Shown one piece after another: positions 5,525 to 26,035 of a stretch of 35,029 nt of DNA. Source of the stretch: an uncultured Bacteroidales bacterium (GTDB lineage Bacteria > Bacteroidota > Bacteroidia > Bacteroidales > Muribaculaceae); NCBI GenBank assembly GCA_946412245.1, contig CAMKGM010000031.1, forward strand, positions 1-35,029, written 5' to 3'. A program made the translations under genes and the position numbers. A model generated the notes under the pieces. The model searched no databases. It worked only from the letters and a program-made list of their open reading frames with translations, and had not been told where the DNA came from. How positions within the stretch are numbered: position 1 is the first letter of the stretch; each line of letters starts with the position of its first letter.

Positions 5525-5556
5525 TTTGCATTCAACAAATTTATTTCATAACTTTG
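5525..5556 (+). promoter_or_regulatory. Bacteroidota-type promoter for the gene at 5589
   Basis: TTTG at 5525-5528, exactly 20 bases, then TAACTTTG at 5549-5556: a full match to the sigma-ABfr consensus. Transcription would begin near 5563, about 26 bases before the ATG at 5589, which supports that start. Confidence 0.75.
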
Positions 5557-5588
5557 TAATCGAAGTATAAACTCTAATTTTGAGCATA

Positions 5589-6205: not shown

Positions 6206-6712
6206 ATGAAAAAGACACTGCTCACACTACTTATCGTCGCGCCGTTGTGCTTGATGGCGCAAACCGCCAAGATTGCTCATGTTGACGTGAAGGCCATCTA
6301 CAATGCCATGCCTGAGAAAAGTCAGGCGCAAGACCAACTCCGGGCTTTCTCGCAACAGTACCAGGCTGAGTACAACACCGTGCAAGAGGAATTTAACAAG
6401 AAGTTTGCCGACTACCAAACGCTCGCTGCCGATGCTGCGACTCCCGCCACCATCAAGGAGCGTCGCATGCACGAGATTCAGGAGAGCGACCACAAGATTC
6501 AGCAGTTCCTCAACAAAGCCGAGGCCGATATTGCCGCCAAGGAAAAGGAACTGAACGCGCCCATCATGAAGAAGATTAACGATGCCATCAAGGCTGTGGG
6601 CACCGAGGGAGGCTACACTTATATTCTTGACATCTCCACTACGCCCGTGGCCTACTATGGCCCTAACGCCATTGATGTTACGCCCCTGGTCAAAGCCAAG
6701 CTGGGTCTGTAA
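6206..6712 (+). CDS. OmpH/Skp family periplasmic chaperone
   Basis: A 168-residue homologue of Skp/OmpH, the trimeric periplasmic chaperone that holds unfolded outer-membrane proteins. A signal peptide (MKKTLLTLLIVAPLCLMAQ) precedes the family start TAKIAHVDVKAIYNAMPE. The middle, about residues 40-125, is a long charged coiled coil (QDQLRAFSQQYQAEYNTVQEEF... to AAKEKELNAPIMKKINDAI), the tentacle of the fold. The C-terminus returns to the beta body with YTYILDISTTPVAYYGPNAIDVTPLVKAKLGL, typical of Bacteroidota members. Here it sits before an outer-membrane barrel gene (45-base gap), which fits its role, rather than next to bamA as is often seen. Confidence 0.92.
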   Translation: MKKTLLTLLIVAPLCLMAQTAKIAHVDVKAIYNAMPEKSQAQDQLRAFSQQYQAEYNTVQEEFNKKFADYQTLAADAATPATIKERRMHEIQESDHKIQQFLNKAEADIAAKEKELNAPIMKKINDAIKAVGTEGGYTYILDISTTPVAYYGPNAIDVTPLVKAKLGL

Positions 6713-6757: not shown

Positions 6758-8104
6758 ATGATACGAGTTTACAATAGGCATTATAGACGGTTGCTGAAGA
6801 GCGCGCTGATGGCGTTCATCTTGTTGCCATGCACTGCAATCGCTCAAGATCAAAGCGAGGAAGTTCAAGAGAAAAAGAATGTGTTCTCGATTGACGCTGA
6901 ATTGCTGACTCGCGGTGAAATCAGGAGTGGCGGTCTCGCTAATGAGGGCGTTGACGAGGATGAGAACATCGCCAAGTTCATTTTGGAACGAACCCGACTG
7001 GGTCTTGACTACGAGCGCGACATCCTGAAAGCGCACATCACGGCACAGCACAGTGCGGTGTGGGGGCAAGCCGGCAAGGGCTCACTGAACATCTACGAAG
7101 CGTGGGCGCAGCTGAAGGCACATAATGGCCTGTTTGCCAAACTGGGACGCCAGGTACTGAGCTATGACGACGAACGCATCATAGGCTCCAACGACTGGGC
7201 TGTGACGGCTCTGTCGCACGATGTGCTGAAGTTGGGCTATGAGGGCCACGGCCACAAGGTTCACGCGATTTTCGCCTATAACCAAAACAGTGAGAGCGTG
7301 AACGGAACTACACTATATCTGAATGGCGACAAACCTTACAAGACGATGCAGACGCTGTGGTATCACTACGACTTTCAGAAGATTCCGCTGGGTGCGTCGT
7401 TGCTGTTCATGAACATGACTGTTCAGGGAGGAAAAGAGTCAGATTTGAAAGCGCAGTTCAATCAGCAGTTGCTTGGTGGCTACGCGAAGTATGACGATGG
7501 TCGGTTTGGCGTTGAGGCATCATATTATCGTCAAATGGGTAAGGCCGAGCAAGGCATCAAGCTGAAGACCTGGATGGCGAGTGCTCGAGGCACCTTCTCA
7601 CCGAACGAAAAATGGCGCTTGGTGGGCGGCTATGACGTGTTGAGCGGCGACCCGAAGTTTCCTGTGCCCGGTCAGGGTCAAATTGGGCTTGTGCAACACA
7701 AGGAGATAAACGGCTTCACGCCGGCCTACGGTTCGCACCACAAGTTCTATGGCGCGATGGACTTCTTTTATGTGACAACCTACCATAACGGTTTTACTCC
7801 CGGCCTTCAAAACATGTATGCCGGTGTGGAGTTCAGTCCCGTCAAGCCGTTGAAGTTGGGCACAACCTATCACTATTATAGCACTGAAACGAAACTTAAC
7901 AACTTGGGCAAGAAGCTTGGTCATGAGATAGAGTTCACGGCCTCATATGATGTACTGAAAGAGGTGAAAGTGTCGCTGGGCTACACCTTCATGGCCGGTA
8001 GCAAGACAATGGAAGCGCTTAAACGCGTGGATCACGAGCGCAACCTGCACTGGGCCTGGCTGAACGTGCTGATTCGTCCGCGATTCCTGTCGGTGCGCTG
8101 GTGA
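6758..8104 (+). CDS. Alginate-export-family outer-membrane beta-barrel
   Basis: A 448-residue predicted outer-membrane barrel of the alginate_exp/AlgE-like group. After a signal peptide with basic N-region (cleavage near TAIAQ, about residue 29) the sequence is an array of amphipathic strands ending in aromatic residues. Family-typical segments are FILERTRLGLDYERDILKAHITAQHSAVWG, IYEAWAQLK, FAKLGRQVLSYDDERIIGSNDW, HHKFYGAMDFF and a C-terminal strand region LNVLIRPRFLSVRW. In Bacteroidota these proteins are usually uncharacterised porins, so alginate transport should not be assumed. It is the last gene of the apparent 5589-8104 transcript. A run of a ten-base repeat begins four bases after its stop codon. 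Confidence 0.8.
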   Translation: MIRVYNRHYRRLLKSALMAFILLPCTAIAQDQSEEVQEKKNVFSIDAELLTRGEIRSGGLANEGVDEDENIAKFILERTRLGLDYERDILKAHITAQHSAVWGQAGKGSLNIYEAWAQLKAHNGLFAKLGRQVLSYDDERIIGSNDWAVTALSHDVLKLGYEGHGHKVHAIFAYNQNSESVNGTTLYLNGDKPYKTMQTLWYHYDFQKIPLGASLLFMNMTVQGGKESDLKAQFNQQLLGGYAKYDDGRFGVEASYYRQMGKAEQGIKLKTWMASARGTFSPNEKWRLVGGYDVLSGDPKFPVPGQGQIGLVQHKEINGFTPAYGSHHKFYGAMDFFYVTTYHNGFTPGLQNMYAGVEFSPVKPLKLGTTYHYYSTETKLNNLGKKLGHEIEFTASYDVLKEVKVSLGYTFMAGSKTMEALKRVDHERNLHWAWLNVLIRPRFLSVRW

Positions 8105-8198: not shown

Positions 8199-10400
8199 AT
8201 GTCAAGAATGTCCAATCAATTCATCAGTTTCTTTAAGTCACACGGCAAGTTGAGTCTGGTGGTGATAGGCGTGGCGTTGTTGCTTGAGGTAATCTCGGCA
8301 GTGCAGTATCTCTACACTCGCAACATCATGCGCGATGAGCTTGAGGACCTCATGGGCAAGGAAATCACGATGAAAGCCATGCTCGTAAAGGGAATGCTCA
8401 ACTACACCGAGGGCGTGCTGAATAGCCATGCCGACGCCATCTGCGACGACTTGGTTCAGCCCGACTCCATCTATGACCACCTGCAGTGGCTCACTCATGT
8501 GAACAAGCATTTCTCTGGCGTGGGGCTTGCGTTTGTGCCCGGTTATTACAAGGACAGAGATTATCTGTATGAGCCGTGGACCTATCGCGACGAAAATATG
8601 CCCGACACTGTGCTTTATGGGCAACTGGGCAGTGCGGAGCATGACTATACAAAACTGGACTTTTATTATCAAACCGTGTCTAAGGACGCTCCCTACTGGG
8701 CTGAGCCATATCTTAATTATCGTGGAGCCAAAGGCTTGGTTACTACCTATGCCATTCCCATTCATGACAGCAAGGGCAAGGTGGCGTGTGTGGCAGGTGT
8801 GGACTTGTCGCTCAGCTGGTTGAGCGACACGTTGAATCAGCGTCATTCACATGAGTCTTCGTTCAGCCTGTTGCTCACTGAGAACGGTGAGTTGATTTCT
8901 CAACCGTCGTCAAGTCATCCCAAGTATGCCGACTTTGACAATGCTATAATGCTGATTAATGACTCCACGGTGTCGCGTCACAAAACCAAGTCGGGCCATT
9001 TCACTTGCATTGAGTTTAAGAGCGAGATTGACGGCTCAACGGCCTATGTCTACTATGCTTTCATGAAGGGCAGGCCCCACTGGCAGTTGGCCATTGTGTG
9101 CTATGACAAGGAAGTGTTCGATGCATTATACTCGATGCGTCATCGCGTGTTCCTGCTGATGCTGCTGGGTGTGGCATTACTGGGTTATATCGTGTACCGA
9201 TTTTTGAAAGGAAACAAACAACTTGCCGATATTGAGATGGAGCGTCAGCGCATCGACAGCGAGTTGCATGTGGCTAAGCGCATCCAGAGCGAGATGCTGC
9301 CCGGCGAGGAGATGACGCAAGGCGGCGTGACGCTGTCTGGGCGTCTGATACCTGCCCGCGAGGTGGGTGGTGACCAGTATGACTACTTTGTGCGCGACGA
9401 CAAGCTGTTCTTTGCCATAGGCGACGCAAGTGGCAAGGGAGTGCCGTCGGCTTTAGTAATGTCGGTATCGCACTCGCTGTTTCGTGCCATTGGTGCTCGC
9501 GAGAGCCATCCCGCACGCATCATGCATTTGATCAATGAAGCTGTATGTCAGGGCAATGAGTCGAATATGTTTGTGACCTTCTTCATAGGCGTTCTGGATT
9601 TGCCCACTGGCAAGCTCCGCTACTGTAACGCAGGCCATGACACGCCGTTGCTGGTGAAGGGTGAGGTAGAGAAGTTCCCGGTGAAATCGAATTTGCCGCT
9701 GGGCGTGATGAACGACTGGTTTTTTGAGGGAGAGGAGACGACGCTCGAGCCGGGAACGACGCTATTGCTTTACACCGACGGCCTAACCGAGGCGATGGAT
9801 GCGCAGCACCGTCAGTTCGGTCTTGAGCGGGTGTGTGAAGTGTCGAAGAATCATGCTGATGCCGAGCCAAGCCGATTGCTCAGTGACTTGATTGCGAGCG
9901 TTCGCGCATTTGTGAAAGGCGCCGAGCAGAGCGATGACTTGACGCTGCTGGCAGTGCGCTACAGTCCACAAGAAGTTCACTTTGAGTTGCAGGAAACACT
10001 CACCGTGCAGAACGACGTGAAGCAGGTCACGCTTGTGAACGAGTTTGTCAAGAATGTGGCCCAGCGAACCGGCTATAGTCCTGAGCAGGTGAGCGGCATT
10101 CAGCTGGCCATTGAAGAAGCCGTGGTGAATGTGATGAACTATGCCTATCCTGAGGGAGAAACGGGCGAAGTTGAGATACAAGCGGCGGCTTCAGCCGATT
10201 TGCTGAGATTTAAGGTGATAGATAGCGGTATGCCCTTTGCCCCGACTGATGCGCCCGATGTGGACACTTCGCTGAGCGCCGAGGAACGTCAGATAGGTGG
10301 GTTGGGAATCTTCCTGGTGCGCCAAATGATGGATGTAATCAACTATGAGCGCATCGACGGCAAGAATGTGCTGACACTCACTAAGAAACGTAATTGTTGA
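8199..10400 (+). CDS. Membrane sensor / SpoIIE (PP2C) phosphatase / GHKL ATPase fusion
   Basis: A 733-residue regulator of the partner-switching type. TM1 spans about residues 18-39, followed by a periplasmic Cache-like sensor region (about 40-310, with the Cache-type segment YAIPIHDSKGKVACVAGVDLS) and TM2 at about 317-336. After a short helical linker comes a SpoIIE/RsbU phosphatase (about 350-590) with metal-binding Asp392 (GGDQYDY), Asp409 (GDASGKG), Asp527 (YTDGLTE) and Asp579-Asp580 (DDLTL). Residues 600-733 form an RsbW/SpoIIAB-like HATPase with N-box Glu639 to Asn644, G1 DSGMPF and G2 GGLGIFL. Phosphatase and kinase-like domains are thus opposed in one chain. The likely substrate is the STAS protein encoded 82 bases downstream. 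No TAnnTTTG promoter is seen in the short upstream gap. Confidence 0.92.
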   Translation: MSRMSNQFISFFKSHGKLSLVVIGVALLLEVISAVQYLYTRNIMRDELEDLMGKEITMKAMLVKGMLNYTEGVLNSHADAICDDLVQPDSIYDHLQWLTHVNKHFSGVGLAFVPGYYKDRDYLYEPWTYRDENMPDTVLYGQLGSAEHDYTKLDFYYQTVSKDAPYWAEPYLNYRGAKGLVTTYAIPIHDSKGKVACVAGVDLSLSWLSDTLNQRHSHESSFSLLLTENGELISQPSSSHPKYADFDNAIMLINDSTVSRHKTKSGHFTCIEFKSEIDGSTAYVYYAFMKGRPHWQLAIVCYDKEVFDALYSMRHRVFLLMLLGVALLGYIVYRFLKGNKQLADIEMERQRIDSELHVAKRIQSEMLPGEEMTQGGVTLSGRLIPAREVGGDQYDYFVRDDKLFFAIGDASGKGVPSALVMSVSHSLFRAIGARESHPARIMHLINEAVCQGNESNMFVTFFIGVLDLPTGKLRYCNAGHDTPLLVKGEVEKFPVKSNLPLGVMNDWFFEGEETTLEPGTTLLLYTDGLTEAMDAQHRQFGLERVCEVSKNHADAEPSRLLSDLIASVRAFVKGAEQSDDLTLLAVRYSPQEVHFELQETLTVQNDVKQVTLVNEFVKNVAQRTGYSPEQVSGIQLAIEEAVVNVMNYAYPEGETGEVEIQAAASADLLRFKVIDSGMPFAPTDAPDVDTSLSAEERQIGGLGIFLVRQMMDVINYERIDGKNVLTLTKKRNC

Positions 10401-10405
10401 CACAA

Positions 10406-10428
10406 AAAATGCCGATTTATCGCATTTT
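10406..10428 (+). other. Small A/T-rich hairpin between the SpoIIE and STAS genes
   Basis: AAAATGC (10406-10412) pairs with GCATTTT (10422-10428) around a 9-base loop, ending in T residues. It could act as a weak attenuator inside the operon; no promoter motif is visible in this 82-base gap. Confidence 0.35.
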
Positions 10429-10482
10429 AGAGAAGATTCACATGAAGAATAATATAAATTACTAACAATAAATGACATCATT

Positions 10483-10785
10483 ATGAAGACTACGATTAAA
10501 GAAAATGACGGCAAACTGCTGGTGGCTCTTGTGGGCGAACTGGACACTGCCGCCGCTGCAGGAGTGGAGCAGGAACTGCAACCCTTGTACGAGAATGAAG
10601 ACAAGGACATTGTGTTTGATTGCGAAAAACTTGAGTATATCGCATCGAGCGGACTGCGCATCTTGCTGTCAATACTCAAGAAAGCTAAGTCGCATGGTCA
10701 CACGGTGACGCTGAAGTCAATGAACGACGACATCAAGAATGTGTTCAAGATGACAGGCTTCATCAATCTGTTCAATTTTGAGTAA
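10483..10785 (+). CDS. STAS-domain anti-sigma factor antagonist
   Basis: A 100-residue single STAS domain like SpoIIAA/RsbV. Such proteins are phosphorylated on a Ser by a partner kinase and dephosphorylated by a SpoIIE-type phosphatase; the unphosphorylated form binds the kinase or another target. The core LVGELDTAAAAGVEQEL (first strand and helix) and the phosphorylation loop IASSGLRIL are present, with Ser55 or Ser56 at the modified position. The C-terminal NVFKMTGFINLFNFE is typical. It lies between the SpoIIE fusion and the NRPS gene, only 25 bases before the latter, so it is surely co-transcribed with the NRPS. No sigma factor gene is in the window, so the downstream target is unknown. 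Confidence 0.93.
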   Translation: MKTTIKENDGKLLVALVGELDTAAAAGVEQELQPLYENEDKDIVFDCEKLEYIASSGLRILLSILKKAKSHGHTVTLKSMNDDIKNVFKMTGFINLFNFE

Positions 10786-10810
10786 TTACGAATATCTATA
10801 GTCTATATAT

Positions 10811-13800
10811 ATGAAACAGTCAGCTCCTCTTTTACAGGTACAAAACGGGCTCTATGTGGAATGCGCTGCTCATCAGGGAGAGCCGTGCTACAATTTGCCC
10901 TATCTCTATGAGCTCGACGGTAGCCTTGACGGTGAGCGGTTGTGTAGAGCGGTTGAGAGTGCCATCAAGGCCCATCCCACGTTGTTCACGCGCATTTCGC
11001 TCAACGACGAAGGCGAACCCATGCAGACGATAGACCTTGACAATGAGCAGTGGTCGCTTAGCGTGGAAGAGATGGACGACATTGAACCGCTGAAGTCCAC
11101 TTTCATTCAGCCGTTTGACATCAATAGCGATCGTTTGTTCCGCCTGCGCTTGGTGCACAGCGGCAATCATTATTATCTGTTTTGCGACTATCATCACATC
11201 ATCGTTGACGGCACGTCAATGAGCATCTTGCTGCACGACATCGAAAAGGCTTATAATGGCGAGCCCATTGAGAGCGAACAGGTGAGCTTGGCGCAATTGG
11301 CGCAAGAAGAGCGGGCATTGCGTGAGCAACCTGTGTATCAAGAGGCCAAGCAATGGTATGCTCAAAACTTTGACTGCGGCGATACCTTCACACAGCTGTT
11401 GCCCGATCTCGACGACCCGGTGCATGCCGAGGACAGCATGGTTCGCGTGCTGCAGGTTGATATGGCTCGGGTCGATGACTACTGCAAGAGCAACGGGGTG
11501 TTCAAGAGCAACTTCTTTACAGCCGCTTTCAGTTACCTGCTCGCCAAGTATAATAATGAGCAGGAATCGCTCTTTACCACAGTTTATAATGGTCGTAGCG
11601 ATAAGCGGTTGTCGCGCATGGTGGGCATGACTGTGAAGACCCTGCCTGTCTATGGTAAGTTCACGCCCGACACTCGTGTGCTCGACTTCCTGAAAGGCCT
11701 TCAGGACCAGATGAGCGGTTGCCGCAAGCACGACATCTATAACTACAGCGATGTGCTCAACGACCTGAAACTGCAGACCAATGTGATGTTTGCATGGCAT
11801 GGAATGCTGTTTGCCGACGAGCAGATGGCCGGCAAGCCCATGAAGACGATGAGGCTTTGCAATAGCTACCTTGAGGCATCGCTCTATCTCAAGACCTTTA
11901 TACTCAATGGCCATTATCATGTGAAAGCGGAGTATAACAGTAACGAGTATTCGTGTGAGCTCATCAGCCAGTTGCTGGAGAGCTACGAGGCCGTGGTTGA
12001 AGGCTTCTTGAGCTGTGAGTCGCTGGGCAAAATTGCCATTGCCACGCCGGCGCAGCAAGAGGTGCTTGACGGGTTTAATGCGAACGATGTGGACTATGAT
12101 GCGACACAGACTATCGTGAGCCTATTCAGCCGTCAAGCTGTCGCCACGCCCGGTAATGTCGCGGTAGTCTATAAAGACAAAGCCTATACCTATGCTCAAG
12201 TAGATGACCTGAGTAATCGCATAGCCGCCGCAATAGCCCAACGTGGGCTGGGGACTGAGGATGTGGTGTCGGTACTGATTCCGCGTTGCGAGTGGATGAC
12301 AATTGCCTCACTGGGCGTACTCAAAGCCGGTTGTGCCTATCAGCCGTTAGACCCCAGTTATCCGCCTGAACGTCTGAACTTCATGATGAAGGATGCCAAT
12401 GCCAAACTGCTCATTGCCGACGAGCAGTTACGCCCTATTGTAAATGAATATGAGGGCGATGTGCTGACTACTGCCGAGTTGCCCATGCTACCACAACAGC
12501 CTGCTCCTCAGGTGAACATTACGCCTGAACAACTGCTCATTCTGCTCTACACGAGCGGCTCGACCGGTGTGCCCAAGGGCTGCCAGTTGACACATGGCAA
12601 TCTGGTGGCATTCTGTCACTGGTATCATCGCTATTACGACCTCAAGCCTGAACATCGTGTGGCAGCCTATGCCAGCTATGGCTTTGACGCGTGCATGATG
12701 GATATGTATCCCGCCATTACATGTGGTGCCGCAGTTCACATCGTGCCTGAGGAAATTCGTCTTGATTTGATTGCACTCAACGATTATTTTGAAAAGAACA
12801 ATATCACTCACTCGTTCATGACCACGCAAGTGGGTTACCAGTTTGCTACCGGCATAGAGAATCACTCGTTGCGCCATCTGTCAACCGGTGGCGAGAAACT
12901 GGCATCGCTCACTCCACCTGACGGTTATACCTTCCATAATGGTTATGGCCCGACCGAGTGCACAATTTTCACCACCACGTTTCCGGTAACGAAATGGCTG
13001 AAGGATATTCCCATTGGCAAGCCGCTTGATAATATGCGACTTTACATAGTCGATGCGCAAGGGCACCGCATGCCGGTGGGTGCCGCAGGCGAGTTGTGGG
13101 TGTCAGGCCCTCAGGTGAGCCGTGGCTATCTGAATCGTCCTGAGAAGACTGCTGAGGTCTACATTGACAATCCGTTCACAACCGAGGAGAAGTATCGTCG
13201 TGTGTATCGCACCGGCGACATTGTGCGCTACCTGCCCGGCGGCAACATTCAGTTTGTGGGCCGTCGTGACGGTCAGGTGAAGATACGCGGATTCCGCATT
13301 GAGCTGAAAGAAGTGGAAGGCATCATCCGTCAGTTCCCCGGCATTAAGGATGCTACGGTGCAGGCCTTTGACGAGGAAGGCGGTGGCAAGTACATCGCGG
13401 CCTATGTGGTGAGCGATAGCCCTGTGGACATCGATGCGCTCAATGAGTTTATCCTTGGAGAGAAGCCGCCCTATATGGTGCCCGCAGTGACCATGCAGAT
13501 TGACGCCATACCGCTCAACCAGAATCAGAAAGTGAACAAGCGCGCGTTGCCCAAACCTGAAAAGAAGGCGGCTACAGTCGAGGAGGTGAATGCCCCCATG
13601 AACCTGCTGGAGCAGGAACTGCACGACATGGTAGCCAAGATTGTGGGTAGTAGTGACTTCAGCATCACCACGCCACTGGGGTATGCAGGTCTCACGTCCA
13701 TCTCGGCCATTAGGCTTGCGGTGCAGGTGAACAAGCGCTTTGGCGTGGCACTGGACTCTCGTGCGCTCGTCAAGTCGTTCACGCTGCAGGCGGTGGAGAA

Positions 13801-16800
13801 CGAGATATTGCGCAGCTACATGGAAGGTGGGGCAGGGCAGGCCGCCGGAGAAACACAACAGGCTGAACTGACGGCTGTTCCGCTGTCGTATGCCCAAACG
13901 GGTGTCTATTTCGACTGCCTCAAGAATCCGGCTTCTACCATTTATAATATACCCTATTTGCTCACTTATCCGCAAGGTGTCAAAGCCGAGCGGCTTGCCG
14001 AGGTGGTAAAACAAGTGGTGGCATGTCATCCCGAACTGAATGTGCACTTCATCACCGAGGGTGAGGCCATTGTGCAGACTACCGTCGATGCCGCTCCCGT
14101 GGTGGTGCCGCTCACCTCAATGACCGATGAGGAATTGGTGACCTACAAGAACGAGTTCGTCAGGCCCTTCAACCTGCAAAAACCGCCCCTCTATCGGTTT
14201 GAGGTGGTGACCACTCCCGCTGGAGTGCATTTGTTGCTGGATGTGCATCACTTACTCTTTGACGGCGCATCGGCTGACTTGCTCATACGTCAAATAAGCG
14301 CTGTGCTTGAGGGTGGAGAGGCATCGAACGAGACCTATTCCTACCTCCACTTCGTCAACGACCAGCGTGCTGCTGAAGATACCGAACAATTCAAGCAGGC
14401 AGAGCAGTTCTTTGCCGAGCGGCTGAGCACTTGCGAAGGTGCCAGCGAAATTCCGGCCGACCTGCCTAAGAGTGCTGAGCAGGGTTTCATAGGCGAGGCG
14501 GTGTGTGCAGTAGACCATGACGAGGTGGCCGACTTCTGCCGCAAGCAAGAAGTGACACCGGCCCATTTGTTCCTGGCCGCCACATCCTATGTGGTGTCGC
14601 GCTACACCAATAACCGCGAGGTGTATCTGTGCACGGTGAGTAGCGGCCGTTCTAACCTGAAGATTGCCGACACCGTGGGCATGTTTGTCAACACATTGCC
14701 GCTGGCTGTGGACATCAAGGATGTGACAGTTGCCGACTTCTTGCATGAGGTGAGCGATAACTTCAACCAAACGTTGAGTCACGAGGACTATCCGTTTGCC
14801 CGCATTGCTGCCGACTACGGTTTCAGGCCTGCTATCGCCTATGCCTATCAGGTGGGCGTGCTGTCGCAATACACGGTCAATGGACAAAATATCGCGCAAG
14901 AGTTGCTGGAACTCAATGTGCCTAAATTCAAAATCAACATCAAGATTGAAACTCGCGGTGTGGTGGTTCAGTTTGACGATTCGCTCTACTCGGCTCGTCT
15001 TGCCGATGCCATGGCGCAAAGCATTGTGGAGGTGGTCAAACGCATGGTGAAGCAACCCGGCGAACGGGTGAGAGCCCTCTCCATAGTCAGTGCCGCGCAA
15101 GAGCGCGAACTCGAGGGCTTGCGTCAGGTGGGTACCGGCGACGCTCCGTTCAGTCTGTTCCACGACTGCATAGGGCACTTTGCAGCCGTTCAACCCGAGC
15201 ATGAGGCGTTGGTGGCCATTGACGGCAAGTTCACTTATAAAGAAATGGACGAGGTGACCACCCGCATTGCTGCCGCTTTGCAGCAGCGAGGCGTGAAAGA
15301 GCGTGATCGTGTGGCGCTACTGTTACCACGCACCAGCCGACTCATTTTGTCGCTCTTCGGTGTGCTGAAATCGGGCGCGGCCTACATTCCTTGCGATCCT
15401 GAGTATCCTGCTGACCGTGTCAAACTCATTCTTGAGGACAGCGAGGCGCGATACATTATTACTACAGCCGACCGCATGGACACTGTACCGTCGGAGAAAG
15501 CCATTGATGTTGAAGATCTTATTGCTTCACAGGCACCTTACCGCAAACCGGAGATTACGCCCGATGACCTGGCCTACCTTATCTACACCAGCGGCTCTAC
15601 GGGCCGTCCTAAGGGAGTGATGCTCAGGCATGAGGGTATCTGTAACTATCTGTATGGCCATCCCGCCAATGTGTTTGCTCATGCGGTGATGACCGATGCC
15701 ACTCGCGTGCTGAGCGTGACGACCATCTCGTTTGATGCCGCCCTGCAGGACATCGGCATGGCTTACTACAACGGCAAGACACTGATTGTGGCTACCGAGG
15801 AGCAGGCCAATAATCCGCTCGACCTGGCTAACCTCATCAAGGAACAACGCATCAACATGGTGAGCGGCACTCCTTCACGCTGGCTCACTTGGCTCACCAG
15901 TGACGACTTTGCCAAGGCTATTGCCAATATTGCCATTGTGCGTGCCGGCGGCGAGAAATTCAGCGACCAGTTGCTGGAGCAGTTGCGCAAAGTGACCACG
16001 GCTCGCATCATGAACTGCTATGGTCCCACTGAGATTACCGTGGCCTCTAACAACAAGGAACTTACTGATGCCCCATTGGTGACCGTAGGCAAACCCCAGC
16101 TGAACGTCAAGGAGTTTATCGTCGATGCCGACGGTAACGAACTACCCGTGGGCGTGGTGGGCGAACTCTACATTGGTGGCCGTGGCGTGGCGCGAGGCTA
16201 CAACAACCTCGATGAGATGACGCGCGAACGCTTTGTGGACTATCACGGCACACGCATCTATAAATCGGGCGACTACGCCAAGTGGCTACCTGATGGAGAT
16301 GTGGTGATTTTGGGTCGCACCGACCACCAGATAAAACTGCGCGGCCTGCGCATTGAGCTGGGCGAGATTGAGAATGTAATGCTCCGTGTTGATGGCATTG
16401 ACAAGGTGGTGATTATGATTCGCAAGATAGGCGGTAAGGAGCACCTGTGTGCCTACTACACAGCCGACCGTGAGATTGCTCCTGAAGACCTCAAGGCTGA
16501 GATCTCGAAGAGTCTTACACAATACATGGTGCCGACGGCCTATCGCCAACTTGACAAGATGCCGATGACTCCTAACGGCAAGACCGATGTGAAGGCGTTG
16601 CCTGAACCCGAACTGGCTGTCACCTCGGCCTACGAGGAACCTGTTAACGATACCGAGCGCACCTTCTGCAACATTTTTGCCGACATCCTGCAAATGGATA
16701 GGGTGGGGGCTACCGACAACTTCTTTGAACTTGGCGGTACGTCGTTAGTGGTGACCCGCGTGATTATCGAAGCCGACAAGGCCGGGATGCATGTGGCCTA

Positions 16801-18103
16801 CGGCGATGTGTTCACCAATCCCACGCCGCGCAAACTGGCCCGCCTCATCACCGGCGAGGGCGTGAACGACGATGCCGACGAGGTGACCGACTTTGACTAT
16901 GAACCCATCAACAAGTTGCTTGCCGGCAACACGCTCAATGCCTTCCGCAAAGGTGAGCGAGGCCGGTTGGGCAATGTACTGCTCACCGGTGCTACGGGTT
17001 ATCTGGGCATTCACATTTTGCGAGAACTCATTGACTCCGACGCTACCAACATCTACTGCCTGGTGCGCGGCAAGGATGCCGAGAAGGCCGAGAACCGCTT
17101 GCGCACACTGCTCTACTACTACTTTGCCAACGCGTTTAAAGACCTCTTTGGCACGCGGCTGCACATTGTGGTGGGCGATGTGACGAGCGACTTTGAGAAT
17201 GCACAATGCTCAATGCACAGCGCACAATCTTCGCCCTGCACCTTAGGCAATGCCAATATTGACACGGTGTTCAACTGTGCTGCTATCGTGAAGCACTTCA
17301 GTGAGGGCACTGAGATTGAGGATGTGAACATAGGCGGCGCGCGGCGATGTGTGGACTTCTGCCTCGAGCATGACGCTACGCTGGTTCACATTTCTACTGC
17401 CAGCACTCGTGGTTTGTGGGCAGGTGAACCCAAAGCTGATGTATTCACCGAGCAGCGCCTCTATATGGGGCAGTTCCTGGGCAACAAGTACATCTACTCA
17501 AAGTTCATGGCCGAGCGACTTATTCTTGACGCTGTTGCCCGCAAGGGTCTCAAAGCCAAGATTATGCGTGTGGGTAACTTGGCGGCACGAAGCACCGACG
17601 GTGAGTTCCAAGCCAACTTTGCCACCAACTCGTTCATGGGCCGCATCAAGGTCTATAATATGCTGGGTTGCTGTCCCTATGCCATGCGCAACAAGCGTGT
17701 TGAGTTCTCGCCTATCAACGAGGTGTCGCACGCCATCGTGATGCTCGCTACCACGCCGCGTGAGTGCTGCGTGTTCCATCCCTATAACATCCACACCCAG
17801 TTCCTGGGCGATGTGCTCATGGGCTTGAGCAGTGTGGGCGAGGGAATACGTTTTGTGGAGCAGGAAGACTTTGAAACGGCGATGGAGACGGCCAAGGCTG
17901 ACCCGGCCAAGGCCAAGCAGATGGCCAGCTTGCTTGCTTATCAGGACATGGCTCATGGTCAGAAGACCACCGATGTGACCCGCGACAACGACTTCACGAC
18001 GCAGGTGCTCTACCGCTTGGGCTTCGCCTGGTCGCCCACCTCATGGGACTATGTGGAGCGCATGCTCACCGCCATCAGCGGCCTGGGCTTCTTCGACCTG
18101 TAA
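10811..18103 (+). CDS. Two-module NRPS with N-terminal condensation and C-terminal reductase (C-A-PCP-C-A-PCP-R)
   Basis: A 2430-residue cytoplasmic assembly line. C1 (about 10-420) has HHIIVDG (His128, His129, Asp133). A1 (about 440-920) has YTSGSTGVPKG at 580-590, NGYGPTE and YRTGD. PCP1 has its phosphopantetheine Ser963 in the variant loop AGLTSISAI. C2 has HHLLFDG (His1146, His1147, Asp1151). A2 (about 1460-1930) has YTSGSTGRPKG from 1592, NCYGPTE and YKSGD. PCP2 has Ser1978 in LGGTSL. The NAD(P)H-dependent thioester reductase (about 2055-2430) has GATGYLG at 2060-2066 and catalytic Tyr2227/Lys2231. By family knowledge this order gives a dipeptide aldehyde, N-acylated if C1 takes an acyl donor, which may cyclise to a pyrazinone if the amine is free. 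No phosphopantetheinyl transferase gene is in the window. Eye-aligned specificity codes are D-A-M-F-S-G-G-I-F (A1) and D-A-Q-S-V-A-C-V-A (A2); I recognise neither. Confidence 0.95.
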   Translation: MKQSAPLLQVQNGLYVECAAHQGEPCYNLPYLYELDGSLDGERLCRAVESAIKAHPTLFTRISLNDEGEPMQTIDLDNEQWSLSVEEMDDIEPLKSTFIQPFDINSDRLFRLRLVHSGNHYYLFCDYHHIIVDGTSMSILLHDIEKAYNGEPIESEQVSLAQLAQEERALREQPVYQEAKQWYAQNFDCGDTFTQLLPDLDDPVHAEDSMVRVLQVDMARVDDYCKSNGVFKSNFFTAAFSYLLAKYNNEQESLFTTVYNGRSDKRLSRMVGMTVKTLPVYGKFTPDTRVLDFLKGLQDQMSGCRKHDIYNYSDVLNDLKLQTNVMFAWHGMLFADEQMAGKPMKTMRLCNSYLEASLYLKTFILNGHYHVKAEYNSNEYSCELISQLLESYEAVVEGFLSCESLGKIAIATPAQQEVLDGFNANDVDYDATQTIVSLFSRQAVATPGNVAVVYKDKAYTYAQVDDLSNRIAAAIAQRGLGTEDVVSVLIPRCEWMTIASLGVLKAGCAYQPLDPSYPPERLNFMMKDANAKLLIADEQLRPIVNEYEGDVLTTAELPMLPQQPAPQVNITPEQLLILLYTSGSTGVPKGCQLTHGNLVAFCHWYHRYYDLKPEHRVAAYASYGFDACMMDMYPAITCGAAVHIVPEEIRLDLIALNDYFEKNNITHSFMTTQVGYQFATGIENHSLRHLSTGGEKLASLTPPDGYTFHNGYGPTECTIFTTTFPVTKWLKDIPIGKPLDNMRLYIVDAQGHRMPVGAAGELWVSGPQVSRGYLNRPEKTAEVYIDNPFTTEEKYRRVYRTGDIVRYLPGGNIQFVGRRDGQVKIRGFRIELKEVEGIIRQFPGIKDATVQAFDEEGGGKYIAAYVVSDSPVDIDALNEFILGEKPPYMVPAVTMQIDAIPLNQNQKVNKRALPKPEKKAATVEEVNAPMNLLEQELHDMVAKIVGSSDFSITTPLGYAGLTSISAIRLAVQVNKRFGVALDSRALVKSFTLQAVENEILRSYMEGGAGQAAGETQQAELTAVPLSYAQTGVYFDCLKNPASTIYNIPYLLTYPQGVKAERLAEVVKQVVACHPELNVHFITEGEAIVQTTVDAAPVVVPLTSMTDEELVTYKNEFVRPFNLQKPPLYRFEVVTTPAGVHLLLDVHHLLFDGASADLLIRQISAVLEGGEASNETYSYLHFVNDQRAAEDTEQFKQAEQFFAERLSTCEGASEIPADLPKSAEQGFIGEAVCAVDHDEVADFCRKQEVTPAHLFLAATSYVVSRYTNNREVYLCTVSSGRSNLKIADTVGMFVNTLPLAVDIKDVTVADFLHEVSDNFNQTLSHEDYPFARIAADYGFRPAIAYAYQVGVLSQYTVNGQNIAQELLELNVPKFKINIKIETRGVVVQFDDSLYSARLADAMAQSIVEVVKRMVKQPGERVRALSIVSAAQERELEGLRQVGTGDAPFSLFHDCIGHFAAVQPEHEALVAIDGKFTYKEMDEVTTRIAAALQQRGVKERDRVALLLPRTSRLILSLFGVLKSGAAYIPCDPEYPADRVKLILEDSEARYIITTADRMDTVPSEKAIDVEDLIASQAPYRKPEITPDDLAYLIYTSGSTGRPKGVMLRHEGICNYLYGHPANVFAHAVMTDATRVLSVTTISFDAALQDIGMAYYNGKTLIVATEEQANNPLDLANLIKEQRINMVSGTPSRWLTWLTSDDFAKAIANIAIVRAGGEKFSDQLLEQLRKVTTARIMNCYGPTEITVASNNKELTDAPLVTVGKPQLNVKEFIVDADGNELPVGVVGELYIGGRGVARGYNNLDEMTRERFVDYHGTRIYKSGDYAKWLPDGDVVILGRTDHQIKLRGLRIELGEIENVMLRVDGIDKVVIMIRKIGGKEHLCAYYTADREIAPEDLKAEISKSLTQYMVPTAYRQLDKMPMTPNGKTDVKALPEPELAVTSAYEEPVNDTERTFCNIFADILQMDRVGATDNFFELGGTSLVVTRVIIEADKAGMHVAYGDVFTNPTPRKLARLITGEGVNDDADEVTDFDYEPINKLLAGNTLNAFRKGERGRLGNVLLTGATGYLGIHILRELIDSDATNIYCLVRGKDAEKAENRLRTLLYYYFANAFKDLFGTRLHIVVGDVTSDFENAQCSMHSAQSSPCTLGNANIDTVFNCAAIVKHFSEGTEIEDVNIGGARRCVDFCLEHDATLVHISTASTRGLWAGEPKADVFTEQRLYMGQFLGNKYIYSKFMAERLILDAVARKGLKAKIMRVGNLAARSTDGEFQANFATNSFMGRIKVYNMLGCCPYAMRNKRVEFSPINEVSHAIVMLATTPRECCVFHPYNIHTQFLGDVLMGLSSVGEGIRFVEQEDFETAMETAKADPAKAKQMASLLAYQDMAHGQKTTDVTRDNDFTTQVLYRLGFAWSPTSWDYVERMLTAISGLGFFDL
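17195..17248 (+). repeat. In-frame low-complexity segment inside the NRPS reductase domain
   Basis: Residues 2129-2146 of the NRPS, rich in Ser, Ala, Gln and Cys, lie between the GDVTSDF strand and the NIDTVFNCAA strand of the reductase Rossmann fold. The DNA from 17198 is built of near-repeats such as AATGCACA, ATGCTCA, ATGCACA and GCGCACA, unlike the codon pattern on either side. It is in frame and adds no stop. Confidence 0.6.
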
Positions 18104-18128
18104 TAACAGTTAAAAATACTGCAATATA

Positions 18129-18167
18129 AGGGTGTGGCATAATAATTTTGTGTCACACCCTAATTTT
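18129..18167 (+). terminator. Rho-independent terminator after the NRPS gene
   Basis: AGGGTGTG (18129-18136) and CACACCCT (18154-18161) form a perfect 8-base stem followed by AATTTTA. It lies 26 bases past the stop codon and ends the SpoIIE-STAS-NRPS transcript. Confidence 0.75.
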
Positions 18168-18181
18168 ATGGCGATATTCAA

Positions 18182-18516
18182 AATTATTGTTGTCCGATAA
18201 AAGATTTTAGGCACACTGCAATCCATTATGCCTGAGTTGTTTAAATGTTTTTTAAAATATTGAGCTTACTATGAAGCCCGTCAGGGCTGGGTAGATAATA
18301 GGCAGGTGGTGGAGCGAAGCGCAACCCCTGTTTTAAGGTGATATTCAATATAATTAGCCCCATCAGGGGCGACAGATAAAAAACTTGATTCACATTCTGC
18401 CGTCCCTACGGGACTAATGTTGTATATGCCTAACTGACAGGGGTTCTCGCCTGCGGCTTTACCCCTGCCTAGGTTCTTGACAGTCCTAACGGACTTTTAA
18501 TCGGACAACAATAATT
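18182..18516. mobile_element. 335-base inverted-repeat element with multiple hairpins (MITE-like)
   Basis: The ends are perfect 17-base inverted repeats (AATTATTGTTGTCCGAT at 18182-18198 and its complement at 18500-18516). There is no open frame of note inside. At least five small palindromes follow each other: AGCCC/GGGCT at 18275-18288, GCCCC/GGGGC at 18357-18370, GTCCC/GGGAC at 18402-18414, CAGGGGT/ACCCCTG at 18438-18467 and AGTCC/GGACT at 18482-18495. No clear target-site duplication is visible. It may be a non-autonomous transposable element or a dispersed structured-RNA repeat. It fills most of the 551-base gene-free gap between the NRPS and the ATPase gene. Confidence 0.6.
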
Positions 18517-18563
18517 CATAATCTGTGTTTTTGAGGCATTTGTTGTGTTTTTCTTCAAGATTA

Positions 18564-18595
18564 TTTGCGGATTTCAAATCTTTGCTATAATTTTG
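18564..18595 (+). promoter_or_regulatory. Bacteroidota-type promoter for the ATPase gene
   Basis: TTTG at 18564-18567, a 20-base spacer, then TAATTTTG at 18588-18595. Transcription would start near 18602, 53 bases before the ATG at 18655. Confidence 0.7.
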
Positions 18596-18610
18596 CGGTT
18601 AAGAAACGGT

Positions 18611-18635
18611 TGTTTCGGAAACAGATGTTTCGGAA
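18611..18635 (+). promoter_or_regulatory. Possible operator: repeated TGTTTCGGAA in the ATPase leader
   Basis: TGTTTCGGAAACA at 18611-18623 is a perfect 6+1+6 palindrome, and TGTTTCGGAA is repeated directly at 18626-18635. Both copies lie just downstream of the predicted transcription start. They could bind a repressor or shape the leader RNA. Confidence 0.4.
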
Positions 18636-18654
18636 CGAATAATGATTAATTCTT

Positions 18655-19974
18655 ATGAGATTTTTTGACCGAGAAATAGAAATTAAACGATTAAGGGAGA
18701 TACGGCAGATATCGACCAGTGCAGCGCAGTTTACTGTAATTACAGGGCGTCGTCGCATTGGCAAGACTTCGCTTGTGCTTGAGGCTTTTAAAGACGAGCC
18801 TTTCCTTTATTTCTTTGTTTCGCGCAAAGATGAAGCTGAACTGTGCATTGACTACTGCAATGAGATATCGCAAAAACTCAATATACCCATGCTGGGCAAC
18901 ACCAACAGGTTCGCTCAAATCTTTGAGTTTATAATGCAACTGTCTCAAGAGCGTCCCATTACATTGATGATCGATGAGTTTCAAGAGTTTATCAGGGTAA
19001 ACCGTTCGGTGTATAGCGATATGCAACGCATTTGGGACTTGAACAAGCAAGCGTCTCACCTTAACCTGATTGTGTGTGGATCTGTCAACTCGTTAATGAA
19101 CAAGCTGTTTCGTGACCACAAGGAATCGTTGTTTGGACGCAATACCGGTATGATGTCAGTTAAGCCTTTTGCTCCCGCAGTCCTGAAAGAAATTCTTCAT
19201 GAAAAATGTCCTGCAGCAACCAACGAAGACCTGCTTGCGCTCTATTTGTTCTCGGGAGGAGTGGCAAAATATGTCGAGAGTTTCATGGACAACAGCGTTT
19301 TTACATGTGATGAGATGATCAGTTTTGTGACACAAGAGGGATCGCACTTTATTGATGAGGGCAAATTGCTGCTGATTGATGAGTTTGGCAAAGACTATGG
19401 TGTGTACTTCAGTATTTTGAGCCTGATTGCCCAAGGTTATAACACACGCAACCAGCTGGAGGACATTCTCAAAAAAGACATTGGCGGCTATTTGACGAAG
19501 CTTGATAATGAGTATCACATGTTGAGCAGGCGACAGCCCCTGCTGGAACCTACTTTCAATAAAAGAGTGAGATATGGCATTGATGACAATTTCTTGAGGT
19601 TCTGGTTCCGTTTCATGTATAAGTATAACTATATGATAGAAATTGGAGCCCATGAGAAATTGAGAGAGATTGTGGCCCGGGATTACAATACCTATAGTGG
19701 TTTTGTTCTTGAAAAATATTTCAGAGATTTGCTGATAGAGCAACACCGGTTTACCCAACTTGGATACTGGCACGACAATCATGGCAATCATGAGATTGAT
19801 ATCATCGGCATCGACGAGTTGAATAAACGCATTGATTTCTATGAGGTGAAACGGCAAGCGCGGGCCATTAACATGGGTGTGCTGAAGAGCAAGGCTGAGG
19901 AATTCTTCAAGATGCACAAGCACTTGAGCTACTACACTGCCGACTATCATGCTCTAAGCATCGATGATATGTAA
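18655..19974 (+). CDS. AAA ATPase with C-terminal DUF234/PD-(D/E)XK nuclease-like domain
   Basis: A 439-residue cytoplasmic protein of the archaeal-type ATPase family. The Walker A motif GRRRIGKT is at residues 31-38 and Walker B LMIDEFQEF contains Asp107-Glu108. A central helical region follows (winged-helix-like GYNTRNQLEDIL, GGYLTKLDNEY). The C-terminal part matches the DUF234 pattern, with ARDYNTYSGFVLEKYFRDLL and a nuclease-like core: Glu380-x-Asp382 in HEIDIIG, then Glu397-x-Lys399 in FYEVKR. The cellular role of these proteins is not established; they are patchily distributed and often sit in variable regions. It is more AT-rich than its neighbours, has its own promoter, and separates the NRPS from the MATE gene, which suggests a later insertion. 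Nuclease activity is inferred only from the motif. Confidence 0.85.
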   Translation: MRFFDREIEIKRLREIRQISTSAAQFTVITGRRRIGKTSLVLEAFKDEPFLYFFVSRKDEAELCIDYCNEISQKLNIPMLGNTNRFAQIFEFIMQLSQERPITLMIDEFQEFIRVNRSVYSDMQRIWDLNKQASHLNLIVCGSVNSLMNKLFRDHKESLFGRNTGMMSVKPFAPAVLKEILHEKCPAATNEDLLALYLFSGGVAKYVESFMDNSVFTCDEMISFVTQEGSHFIDEGKLLLIDEFGKDYGVYFSILSLIAQGYNTRNQLEDILKKDIGGYLTKLDNEYHMLSRRQPLLEPTFNKRVRYGIDDNFLRFWFRFMYKYNYMIEIGAHEKLREIVARDYNTYSGFVLEKYFRDLLIEQHRFTQLGYWHDNHGNHEIDIIGIDELNKRIDFYEVKRQARAINMGVLKSKAEEFFKMHKHLSYYTADYHALSIDDM

Positions 19975-19985
19975 TTGCCATCATT

Positions 19986-20017
19986 TTTGCTAGTATCAAT
20001 ATTAATTTGTTACTTTG
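19986..20017 (+). promoter_or_regulatory. Promoter for the MATE gene
   Basis: TTTG at 19986-19989, a 20-base spacer, then TTACTTTG at 20010-20017 (one mismatch from TAnnTTTG). The start of transcription would fall near 20024, downstream of an in-frame TTG at 20015, which argues for translation from ATG 20036. Confidence 0.55.
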
Positions 20018-20035
20018 TACAAAAGCATTGAACTT

Positions 20036-21364
20036 ATGGGCGAAAAAAGTATACATAAGCAGTTTTATGGCTATCTGTGGGCGTTCATTCTGGTAGCGCT
20101 CTCGGGTTGCTTGGGCAACGTGGTCGATGGCATCATTGTGGGCAACCTGATTAGTGCCGACGGCGTGAGCGCCATCAACTTGTCAAAACCCATCAACCAG
20201 TTCATCTTCACGCTACACCTGCTCATCAATGCCGGTGCGGGAATGCTGGTGGCCTATGCGCTGGGTCGGCAAAACATAGGCGAGGCGCGGCAATTCTTCA
20301 CGCGTGCGCTCACGCTCAGCACCGGCATCGGACTGTTGCTCACCATTTTGGGTGGCATCGTGTTTCCCGGTCAGGTGGCACGCTTGCTGTGCAATAACGA
20401 GCAATTGCTCCCGCTTGCCAGGGACTATATGCAGGTGTTGCTGCTTGGTAATCCGGCATTCATCGTGATGTGGGGTCTGTCGACCATGGTGGGTGTTAAT
20501 GGCAGTCCTAAACTGGTGTCGCTTGCCGTGATTGTTGACAATGTGGTGAATCTGCTGCTCGACATCGTGTTTATCCAGGCATTTGGCTGGGGCATCACCG
20601 GTTCGAGTGCCGCCACGGTGGTGGGGCATTTGGTGGGCATTTCCATTTTGCTCACGCATTGGTGTAATCCCGAAAATCGCCGGCTCAAATTGCAATTTGG
20701 CGGAGGCGGAGTGCTGGCCTCGTGGCGTCGCATCGTGTCGCAGGGTGCACCGCTGGCGGTCGCGTCAATCTGCCTCACCTTGCTGCTGCTCAGTGCCAAT
20801 ACCATCGTGCTGTCTACCACAGGCCGCACGGGCATCTTCGTGTTTGCCCTATGCATGAATTTGTTGCAGGTATACAATCTCTTCCTTTCGGGCACCTGCC
20901 AAACACTTCAGTCGCTCGGTGCTCGCCAGGTGGGCAAGCGCGACGAACAAAGCGTGCGCGCTGTGATTCGCAAGGGATTCCGGTTCATCACCGTGGCCAT
21001 GGTGGTTACTTGTCTGCTGGTATGGGTTTACCCCGAGGGCATCGCGCGTCTGTTTGGTTGCGACGATCCCGCTGTGATTACCGAGGCCAATCACGCGTTG
21101 CGCGTGTTCGCCCTCAGTTTCATCCCATTCTGCTACATCTATGTGCTCATGATTGTGTACAAACTTTATGGCCACCACCGCATGGCGCTATTCATCTCGT
21201 TCGCCTTGTCGCTCACGGTGATTCCCGTGCTGTGGGCCATGTCGCAGTGGGCGCCCAAAGCCATCTGGTACAGCTATCTCGTAGCTTATGTGATCGAGGC
21301 CATAGTCATCTACATCCTGCACAAGTCGGCGCATATCCAGTTCAAGCTCAAGACCGACAAATGA
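20036..21364 (+). CDS. MATE family efflux transporter
   Basis: A 442-residue inner-membrane exporter with about 12 transmembrane helices, of the multidrug and toxic compound extrusion family, which uses Na+ or H+ gradients. Family signatures are the N-half LSGCLGNVVDGIIVGNLISADGVSAINLS and AGAGMLVAYALGRQNIGEARQFF, and the C-half LSGTCQTLQSLGARQVGKRDEQSV. The chosen start, ATG 20036, gives MGEKSIHKQFYGYLW; the upstream TTG at 20015 lies within the promoter. Substrate cannot be predicted. Its position two genes after the NRPS makes export of the NRPS product a reasonable hypothesis, weakened by the intervening ATPase gene and by its own promoter. It converges with the GntP gene, with only 43 bases between the stops. 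Confidence 0.92.
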   Translation: MGEKSIHKQFYGYLWAFILVALSGCLGNVVDGIIVGNLISADGVSAINLSKPINQFIFTLHLLINAGAGMLVAYALGRQNIGEARQFFTRALTLSTGIGLLLTILGGIVFPGQVARLLCNNEQLLPLARDYMQVLLLGNPAFIVMWGLSTMVGVNGSPKLVSLAVIVDNVVNLLLDIVFIQAFGWGITGSSAATVVGHLVGISILLTHWCNPENRRLKLQFGGGGVLASWRRIVSQGAPLAVASICLTLLLLSANTIVLSTTGRTGIFVFALCMNLLQVYNLFLSGTCQTLQSLGARQVGKRDEQSVRAVIRKGFRFITVAMVVTCLLVWVYPEGIARLFGCDDPAVITEANHALRVFALSFIPFCYIYVLMIVYKLYGHHRMALFISFALSLTVIPVLWAMSQWAPKAIWYSYLVAYVIEAIVIYILHKSAHIQFKLKTDK

Positions 21365-22960: not shown

Positions 22961-23611
22961 ATGAATAAACTCGTAACATTAGAGCAGGCCGTCGAAAAAG
23001 TGAAAGACGGCATGACAATCATGATTGGCGGCTTCCTGGGCGTAGGGAGTCCTACTCAAATTATCGATGCCATCGTTGAGAAGGGCGTCAAGGACTTAAC
23101 TATCATTGCCAATGATACCGCCTACGACGAGGTGGCACACGGCAAGCTGGTGACTAACCACCAGGTGAAGAAAGCCATCGTATCGCACACCGGTACCAAC
23201 AAGCAGACTGCCTTGCAGAAGAACGAAGGCACGCTCATCGTGGAGTATGTGCCTCAGGGTACACTGGCCGAGCGCATCCGTGCGGCAGGCGCAGGTCTGG
23301 GCGGCGTGCTCACCCCGACAGGCATGGGCACCCCCATTGAAGAAGGCAAACAGAAGGTGAATGTTGATGGCAAGGACTACTTGCTCGAGAAACCCCTCAA
23401 GGCCGACATCGCTTTCTTGCGCGCCAACATTGTTGACGAGTTCGGCAACATGGTGTTCTTGGGAACTACCAACAATTTCAACCCGCTGATGGCAACCGCC
23501 GCCGACTATGTGGTGGTTGAGGCCGAGAAGCTGGTGAAAGTGGGCGAAATCAAACCTGAGTGCGTTCACGCATCGGGCATCTATGTTGACGGCATCTATG
23601 TCGAAAAATAA
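22961..23611 (+). CDS. atoD: Acetoacetate/butyryl CoA-transferase, alpha subunit
   Basis: A 216-residue alpha subunit of a heteromeric 3-oxoacid CoA-transferase (family I). In lysine fermentation this enzyme moves CoA from butyryl-CoA to acetoacetate, releasing butyrate and giving acetoacetyl-CoA. The N-terminal KVKDGMTIMIGGFLGVGSPTQIIDAI is the family nucleotide-loop region, and VEYVPQGTLAERIRAAGAGLGGVLTPTGMGT is the other signature. Length is normal for AtoD-type subunits. It is the first gene of the operon, with the beta subunit found 8.7 kb downstream at 32274, an unusual separation. Substrate choice is inferred from the neighbours; acetate or propionate could also be acceptors. Confidence 0.92.
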   Translation: MNKLVTLEQAVEKVKDGMTIMIGGFLGVGSPTQIIDAIVEKGVKDLTIIANDTAYDEVAHGKLVTNHQVKKAIVSHTGTNKQTALQKNEGTLIVEYVPQGTLAERIRAAGAGLGGVLTPTGMGTPIEEGKQKVNVDGKDYLLEKPLKADIAFLRANIVDEFGNMVFLGTTNNFNPLMATAADYVVVEAEKLVKVGEIKPECVHASGIYVDGIYVEK

Positions 23612-23623
23612 TCATTGACAACC

Positions 23624-24010: not shown

Positions 24011-24018
24011 TACCGGAT

Positions 24019-24852: not shown

Positions 24853-24886
24853 CTTCATTATTAACTCAATAAACTATAGAACAACT

Positions 24887-25960: not shown

Positions 25961-25977
25961 TCTCAAAACCATGACGG

Positions 25978-26009
25978 TAGCGATTCACGCCTTAGGGCGT
26001 GTGTCGCTA
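25978..26009 (+). other. Intercistronic hairpin between kdd and kamA
   Basis: TAGCGA (25978-25983) with TCGCTA (26004-26009), and CACGCC (25986-25991) with GGCGTG (25996-26001), form a two-part stem with a 2x2 internal bulge and a TTAG loop. There is no T-run after it, so it is more likely a processing or stability element than a terminator. Confidence 0.6.
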
Positions 26010-26035
26010 TCGCCTTACTGATAAACAACCCTATT

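Follow-up and report, generated by a model that had tools for sequence, protein, structure and literature searches.

What does a partner-switching module control when it is encoded beside a non-ribosomal peptide synthetase (NRPS)? This question is raised by a locus of an uncultured Bacteroidales bacterium (Muribaculaceae), in which a SpoIIE/GHKL membrane sensor and a STAS protein adjoin a reductase-type NRPS; no sigma factor was noted in this block, and no genome-wide sigma-factor search was made. The window, that is, the whole stretch of DNA analysed here, is the complete contig C31 (35029 bases) of a draft genome of 3.17 Mb, with 138 contigs and 98% completeness. Comparison with related loci suggests that five genes would make a dipeptide aldehyde and export it, with export controlled by a partner switch that is dedicated to the locus and works without a sigma factor, a reading whose chances we put just short of even. 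The narrower statement, that SpoIIE and STAS work for the NRPS locus and not for a sigma factor, is well supported by the sequence comparisons. The five genes are the following:

6758..8104, + strand: AlgE-type outer-membrane beta-barrel (porin) gene, the fifth block member

8199..10400, + strand: SpoIIE/GHKL membrane sensor, 733 amino acids (Pfam)

10483..10785, + strand: single-domain STAS protein of the SpoIIAA/RsbV type, 100 amino acids (Pfam, NCBIfam)

10811..18103, + strand: two-module NRPS, C-A-T-C-A-T-R, 2430 amino acids (Pfam, motifs)

20015..21364, + strand: MATE exporter (Pfam MatE, PF01554, 2.8e-31)

Coordinates and Pfam matches agree with the original prediction that the sensor, STAS and NRPS genes are adjacent on the + strand, with gaps of 82 and 25 bases. 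The members named there are correct, but the block begins earlier, with the barrel gene, which had been overlooked.

The sensor protein is composed of an extracytoplasmic dCache/PDC domain, a PP2C phosphatase (PF07228, 5.4e-52; 177 bits, cut-off 25) and an RsbW-like GHKL domain (PF13581 HATPase_c_2, 9.7e-28; 97 bits, cut-off 27.4), in this order. The motif residues of the phosphatase and of the ATP site are invariant in the alignments, and the GHKL domain scores under the NCBIfam RsbW equivalog cut-offs. The AlphaFold2 model of the protein has a pLDDT of 85.8, and its nearest solved structures are Rv1364c and the SiaA PP2C. The STAS protein (PF01740, 6.7e-18) is above the cut-off in both Pfam and NCBIfam (ant_ant_sig); Ser55, present in 109/109 aligned STAS matches, is the likely phosphosite. 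Judged by sequence, the parts of a partner switch are therefore present: a PP2C phosphatase, an RsbW-like GHKL domain and a STAS protein with a conserved serine. In the genome of the window (G000) the only RsbW-like domain above the PF13581 cut-off is the one fused to SpoIIE, which means that the classical anti-sigma partner is missing. Since no separate RsbW-type anti-sigma kinase was found in G000 above the same cut-off, the locus is not filed as a sigma-B-type system.

The NRPS is, by its domain content, an enzyme of two complete modules with a reductive release domain. Pfam recognises two condensation, two AMP-binding and two PP-binding stretches and one NAD_binding_4 reductase, and the motifs HHxxxDG (twice), TGATG and YIYSK are intact; this set of two A-T modules with their condensation domains and a terminal reductase places it among the reductase-terminated dimodular NRPSs. 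The carrier-reductase part matches 6vtj (2e-87) and the AusA reductase 4f6l (3e-44), and the best NCBIfam match of the whole protein is AusA, with 1139.5 bits, under the cut-off of 2500. Within the reductase domain (about 17200-17250) there is a short in-frame insertion, a gap in 6vtj, which is common only to locus L031 among the aligned NRPS rows. The product suggested by this layout is an N-acyl dipeptide aldehyde: the aldehyde because of the terminal reductase, and the N-acyl cap because a condensation domain stands at the N-terminus and a loading module is lacking. Adenylation codes were read with what we take to be the GrsA residue map (module 1, D-A-M-F-S-G-G-I-F; module 2, D-A-Q-S-V-A-C-V-A), and they weakly point to an aliphatic residue followed by an aromatic one. 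The module-2 pattern is retained in 21/22 orthologues of at least 68% identity, the exception being L144. Dipeptide aldehydes of gut bacteria are described in the cited part of PMC12327764.

Export across two membranes would be provided by the remaining members. Proteins 56-86% identical to the MATE of the window are present in other NRPS clusters; the start of the window gene is likelier to be the ATG at 20036 than the TTG at 20015, as judged by eye. The barrel belongs to the block. Among the structure matches listed, fold comparison assigns it to the 18-strand outer-membrane barrels of AlgE fold, with MOMP and OprD-type porins scoring nearly as high as AlgE, and its profile found nothing among PDB sequences at E 0.01.

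Is the switch tied to the NRPS? The SpoIIE, STAS and condensation domains are each found only at this locus in the draft genome of the window. A full-length NRPS is present in 18/198 genomes of the same family, and a SpoIIE match (1e-30) accompanies it in 18/18, compared with 6/180 genomes without a full NRPS (Fisher p 9e-21, a nominal value as the genomes are related). Those six are G004, G092, G119, G144, G156 and G164; four of them have partial SpoIIE matches, and G156 and G164 carry a full SpoIIE with partial or divergent NRPS matches. By coordinates, SpoIIE and NRPS are less than 2 kb apart in 14/18 genomes and less than 10 kb in 16/18 (4.7 kb in G101, 7.5 kb in G135). In this family, consequently, NRPS genes are not mostly devoid of SpoIIE/STAS neighbours, and the association that the original prediction expected to recur in relatives does so. 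STAS proteins were counted in 22 genomes, namely 20 SpoIIE carriers and the congeners G095 and G173, which have neither NRPS nor SpoIIE: one STAS-only protein (frame of 183 amino acids or less) occurs in each of the 20 carriers, an additional STAS domain lies in a larger frame in G079, G101 and G193, and the two congeners gave no STAS match.

This linkage persists through altered gene order among the relatives and is retained in two genomes of other families, as MATE-NRPS-SpoIIE-STAS in G460 and as the SpoIIE end followed by STAS-porin-NRPS-MATE in G550. A wider set was made of 80 named SpoIIE loci, the best 80 of 580 confirmed SpoIIE-profile places and not a random sample. These are Bacteroidales records, many of them from the ruminant gut, labelled Muribaculaceae, Prevotellaceae or Prevotella. 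An NRPS lies on the fetched stretch in 20/80, leaving out a weak 24% match in L191; STAS adjoins in 18 of the 20 and the porin is present in 15. That the genes are chance neighbours or hitchhikers can be rejected almost entirely on these figures (18/18 against 6/180 genomes, and 16/18 linkage maintained through gene shuffling and in other families), even though many sister SpoIIE-STAS pairs adjoin other genes and an ATPase gene downstream of the NRPS shows that insertions happen here.

The history of the linkage is not a simple one. In a quick tree of 115 SpoIIE proteins the window falls inside a 42-row group (Shimodaira-Hasegawa-like approximate likelihood ratio test, SH-aLRT, 100), where 28 rows have an NRPS within 8 kb, 7 have the porin without NRPS and 7 have neither; L030, L143 and L152 lie at contig ends or on short contigs, and their context is undecided. 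No APH or CitMHS label occurs inside the group; these are located outside it, as are nine NRPS rows. A single origin of the NRPS linkage was rejected, as 15 label changes are required on the tree, at least 11 of them by supported branches; the linkage has thus been gained or lost several times.

The point of action of the switch is suggested by gene fusions. In four NRPS clusters (L125, L137, L221 and L222, of genomes G460, G101, G194 and G026) MATE exporter and RsbW-like GHKL domain (HATPase_c_2) form one fusion protein, and in one of these, L137, the SpoIIE protein has lost its own GHKL domain. The MATE of L137 is 38% identical to that of the window and 25% to that of L125, and a single clade of MATE-GHKL fusions is not rejected (approximately unbiased test, p-AU 0.27). 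With a MATE-GHKL query at 1e-50 and up to three candidates scored per genome, 3/393 genomes of the order matched; one was G460, from which the query came, and in G000 and G550 the match was the MATE of the NRPS cluster. Seven GHKL proteins without a PP2C part were found in the searched open reading frames of the fetched loci, namely the four MATE fusions, L178, L217 and a weak one in L138. The L178 (7378-7869) and L217 (8886-9470) proteins are encoded by separate small genes beside a SpoIIE gene lacking GHKL, in NRPS clusters. Transporters also often follow sister SpoIIE-STAS pairs that have no NRPS: the scanned first downstream genes are Na+/H+ exchangers, CitMHS and ABC-2 types, and Na+/H+ antiporter genes stand after the porin in L145 and L147. 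The first downstream gene on the same strand is polytopic (at least 6 predicted segments) in 16/55 non-NRPS SpoIIE loci against 78/886 genes (p 3e-5), an exploratory result, as the test was chosen after the loci had been inspected, the base set includes the tested genes and the loci are related. The 16 cases belong to three families: six closely related ABC-type (only L175 scanned), five Na+/H+ exchangers (all scanned) and five CitMHS (by similarity).

The original prediction proposed that the module governs synthesis or activity of the NRPS product instead of a sigma factor. Service to the NRPS locus is upheld by the 16/18 linkage, by the congeners without STAS and by the lack of another RsbW-like domain; as to synthesis or activity, the comparative evidence leans to export, which is favoured because of the MATE-GHKL fusions and the transporters downstream of sister SpoIIE-STAS pairs. 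Direct control of synthesis, with STAS binding the NRPS or its phosphopantetheinyl transferase and so switching product formation, is compatible with the 25 bases that separate the STAS and NRPS genes and with L035 (G001) and L156, where SpoIIE, STAS and NRPS follow one another without a porin between. It is nevertheless rather improbable, given that some SpoIIE-STAS pairs have only the porin, or transporters, and no NRPS beside them, and that no NRPS-GHKL or NRPS-STAS fusion is found among the GHKL matches of the fetched loci.

The exploratory character of the first-gene test weighs against an action on export by a switch dedicated to the NRPS locus, and so do several other observations. The MATE of the window itself has no GHKL domain. 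The G2-box glycine is missing in 3/4 fused GHKL domains and the lid regions of all four are 2-12 alignment columns shorter than that of the window SpoIIE, for which reasons the fused domains may not be kinases. Among all operon mates of the non-NRPS loci, transporters number 23/207 against 57/819 (p 0.058). As regards dedication, the NRPS is 52 kb from SpoIIE in G154 and on a different contig in G146; SpoIIE-STAS-porin rows without a nearby NRPS exist in L034, L145, L147, L161, L194 (with no STAS match) and L209; and L159 and L170 are SpoIIE-porin-NRPS rows without a STAS match.

The space between NRPS and MATE holds two further features:

18182..18516: 335-bp element whose 21-bp ends are inverted repeats (95% complementary), between the NRPS and the ATPase gene

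18655..19974, + strand: AAA ATPase/DUF234 gene between NRPS and MATE (Pfam ATPase_2, DUF234)

The element looks, from its repeats, like a miniature transposable element. The MATE exporter does lie downstream of the NRPS on the + strand, as had been predicted, but it does not follow directly, as this element and the previously unmentioned ATPase gene intervene. Membership of the ATPase/DUF234 gene in the cluster was rejected and the gene is judged an insertion, because DUF234 is absent from the matches listed for the loci of 20 relatives and because in the nearest relative, L031, NRPS is followed by MATE. On the other side of the block, an OmpH-like gene (6206-6712) and the frame 5580-6164 were left out as members; neither has a listed tblastn match in the loci of the 20 relatives, for which mostly about 3.5 kb upstream is covered. 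The porin promoter may be common to both. Further downstream, 22961-27322 contains CoA-transferase, zinc-dehydrogenase-type and lysine-2,3-aminomutase-type genes, which resemble a lysine fermentation set.

The window was scanned with what we take to be the Bacteroidetes-type promoter consensus, which matched at 4664, 5525, 5553 and 18564 (4 in the window against 0.52 expected) and had no match between 5583 and 18563. Two of the matches overlap:

5525..5582, + strand: two overlapping promoter-consensus matches (assumed motif), putative promoter for 5580 through the NRPS

The positions would fit a single transcript that runs from 5580 through the NRPS, and a separate promoter for the ATPase and MATE genes. 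Alternatively, STAS might regulate the locus at the level of transcription, through an unlinked regulator that would be a DNA-binding protein or an anti-sigma factor of a different type; the one putative promoter in front of the porin is a conceivable target. Transcriptional control is presented as the usual role of canonical STAS proteins in the cited part of PMC8256260, and an AraC-type regulator gene follows the SpoIIE-STAS pair in L126, as does a WYL-domain gene in L154. We regard it as unlikely on balance: the genome has no other RsbW-like domain above the cut-off, and the MATE-GHKL fusions would be left unexplained.

Conservation is unequal along the locus. Averaged over up to 15 hand-picked loci of the five-gene type, identity to the window falls from 89% (second carrier) through 80 and 83% (A domains), 79% (reductase), 76% (MATE), 66% (STAS) and 51% (porin) to 40% in the sensor, which is the most divergent part. 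This bears on the idea of a signal circuit, where the NRPS would be a signal synthase, dCache would sense the exported product or its pyrazinone, and STAS would control other physiology. Structure comparison shows that the sensor has the dCache fold and resembles ligand-binding chemoreceptor domains, and pyrazinone and pyrazine autoinducers are reported for Klebsiella oxytoca in the cited part of PMC11480411. A sensor at 40% beside A and R domains at 79-83% is, on the other hand, the reverse of what would be expected if the loci shared a sensor for one conserved product, and such a circuit is considered distinctly improbable.

Under the export reading, the NRPS would build the N-acyl dipeptide aldehyde through reductive release, and MATE would move it across the inner membrane and the AlgE-type barrel across the outer one. 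The dCache sensor would determine how far PP2C phosphatase or GHKL kinase prevails, and hence the phosphorylation of Ser55 of STAS, as the intact motifs allow. Co-inheritance with the NRPS locus is observed, and the switch would be dedicated to this locus in function as well. In the weakest step, one form of STAS might act on the exporter via a GHKL-type docking surface, of the kind fused to MATE in some relatives.

Several known systems resemble parts of this arrangement. RsbU/RsbV/RsbW and SpoIIE/SpoIIAA/SpoIIAB of Bacillus share with it a PP2C phosphatase, a GHKL kinase and a STAS protein with a conserved Ser, whereas in the window the kinase is fused to the phosphatase, and neither a separate anti-sigma protein above the cut-off nor a sigma gene in the block was noted. 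Rv1364c of Mycobacterium tuberculosis, whose solved structure comes closest to the enzyme part of the window SpoIIE, has to our knowledge no dCache membrane sensor of this kind, as compared by description. AusA is likewise a reductase-terminated two-module enzyme; relative to it, the window NRPS presumably has an extra N-terminal condensation domain, and the PP2C/STAS neighbours belong to the window NRPS, which scores under the AusA cut-off. Weak structure matches of the STAS protein include structures of MlaB, for which we know of no SpoIIE partner and whose transporter is of the ABC kind, whereas the exporter of the window is a MATE. The indigoidine synthase IgiD is an NRPS. Control of such a pathway by RsbW-like proteins has precedent, because TciR, the RsbW-like protein of TciK-TciR in Vogesella, is reported to affect indigoidine production by IgiD (PMC12826045); that system differs from the window in having a histidine kinase and a receiver-RsbW protein, and an RsbV homologue is stated to be absent in the cited part of the same source. 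A precedent for a STAS protein acting on a transporter, as proposed here, is MlaB, which is part of the Mla ABC transporter and is treated as its regulator in the cited part of PMC7367683.

By analogy, the switch of the window would work most like SypE-SypA of Vibrio fischeri, where kinase and phosphatase are also in one protein with one STAS output, encoded in the locus that they serve, and where the cited parts of PMC4517449 and PMC8256260 give no sigma factor as known target. SypE has a receiver domain (cited part of PMC12826045), in place of which the window protein has a dCache membrane sensor; as no REC domain is among the Pfam matches of the window protein, the system is not counted as a member of the SypE family. 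The syp locus makes a polysaccharide, whereas an NRPS product with MATE and porin belongs to that of the window. The mode of action of SypA is given as still unknown in the cited part of PMC4517449. Descriptions of SpoIIE-STAS-NRPS linkage, of a PP2C-STAS module that has an exporter and a porin of its own, or of a MATE-GHKL fusion were not found among the matches listed from open-licence titles and abstract openings.

Other settings of the SpoIIE-STAS pair were observed in the fetched loci. In L034, L147 and L209, SpoIIE-STAS-porin is accompanied by a phosphopantetheinyl transferase gene with no NRPS or MATE between, as if these two had been lost. The pair heads a gene row in L138 (7749-19501) that encodes LuxE, a LuxC/AMP-ligase fusion, a GNAT protein and an MFS transporter and that may form and export another aldehyde; the GNAT protein has a weak N-terminal GHKL-like match (26 bits) and no Pfam GHKL match. 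A STAS domain fused to an APH-type phosphotransferase adjoins the pair in L121 (14211-15401), and unfused APH genes stand before many other SpoIIE genes. In L173 (6814-14597) the pair is beside an APH-type gene and, by eye, RelA/SpoT-type and Tex-like genes, an arrangement that may be more ancient in Bacteroidales.

For a STAS protein that would act without a sigma factor, the natural gene fusions found here name a candidate target that is accessible with soluble domains. It is possible, though doubtful, that the SpoIIE-STAS pairs of Bacteroidales form a sigma-free class of partner switches whose STAS proteins gate membrane transporters, here a product exporter, and that in the MATE-GHKL fusions nature has joined the STAS-binding domain covalently to its target. 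If so, GHKL tails on transporters beside STAS genes would serve as a search rule. If the switch does act on export, the release of a reactive peptide aldehyde by a gut bacterium would be governed by a phospho-switch that has its own inner-membrane exporter and outer-membrane channel.

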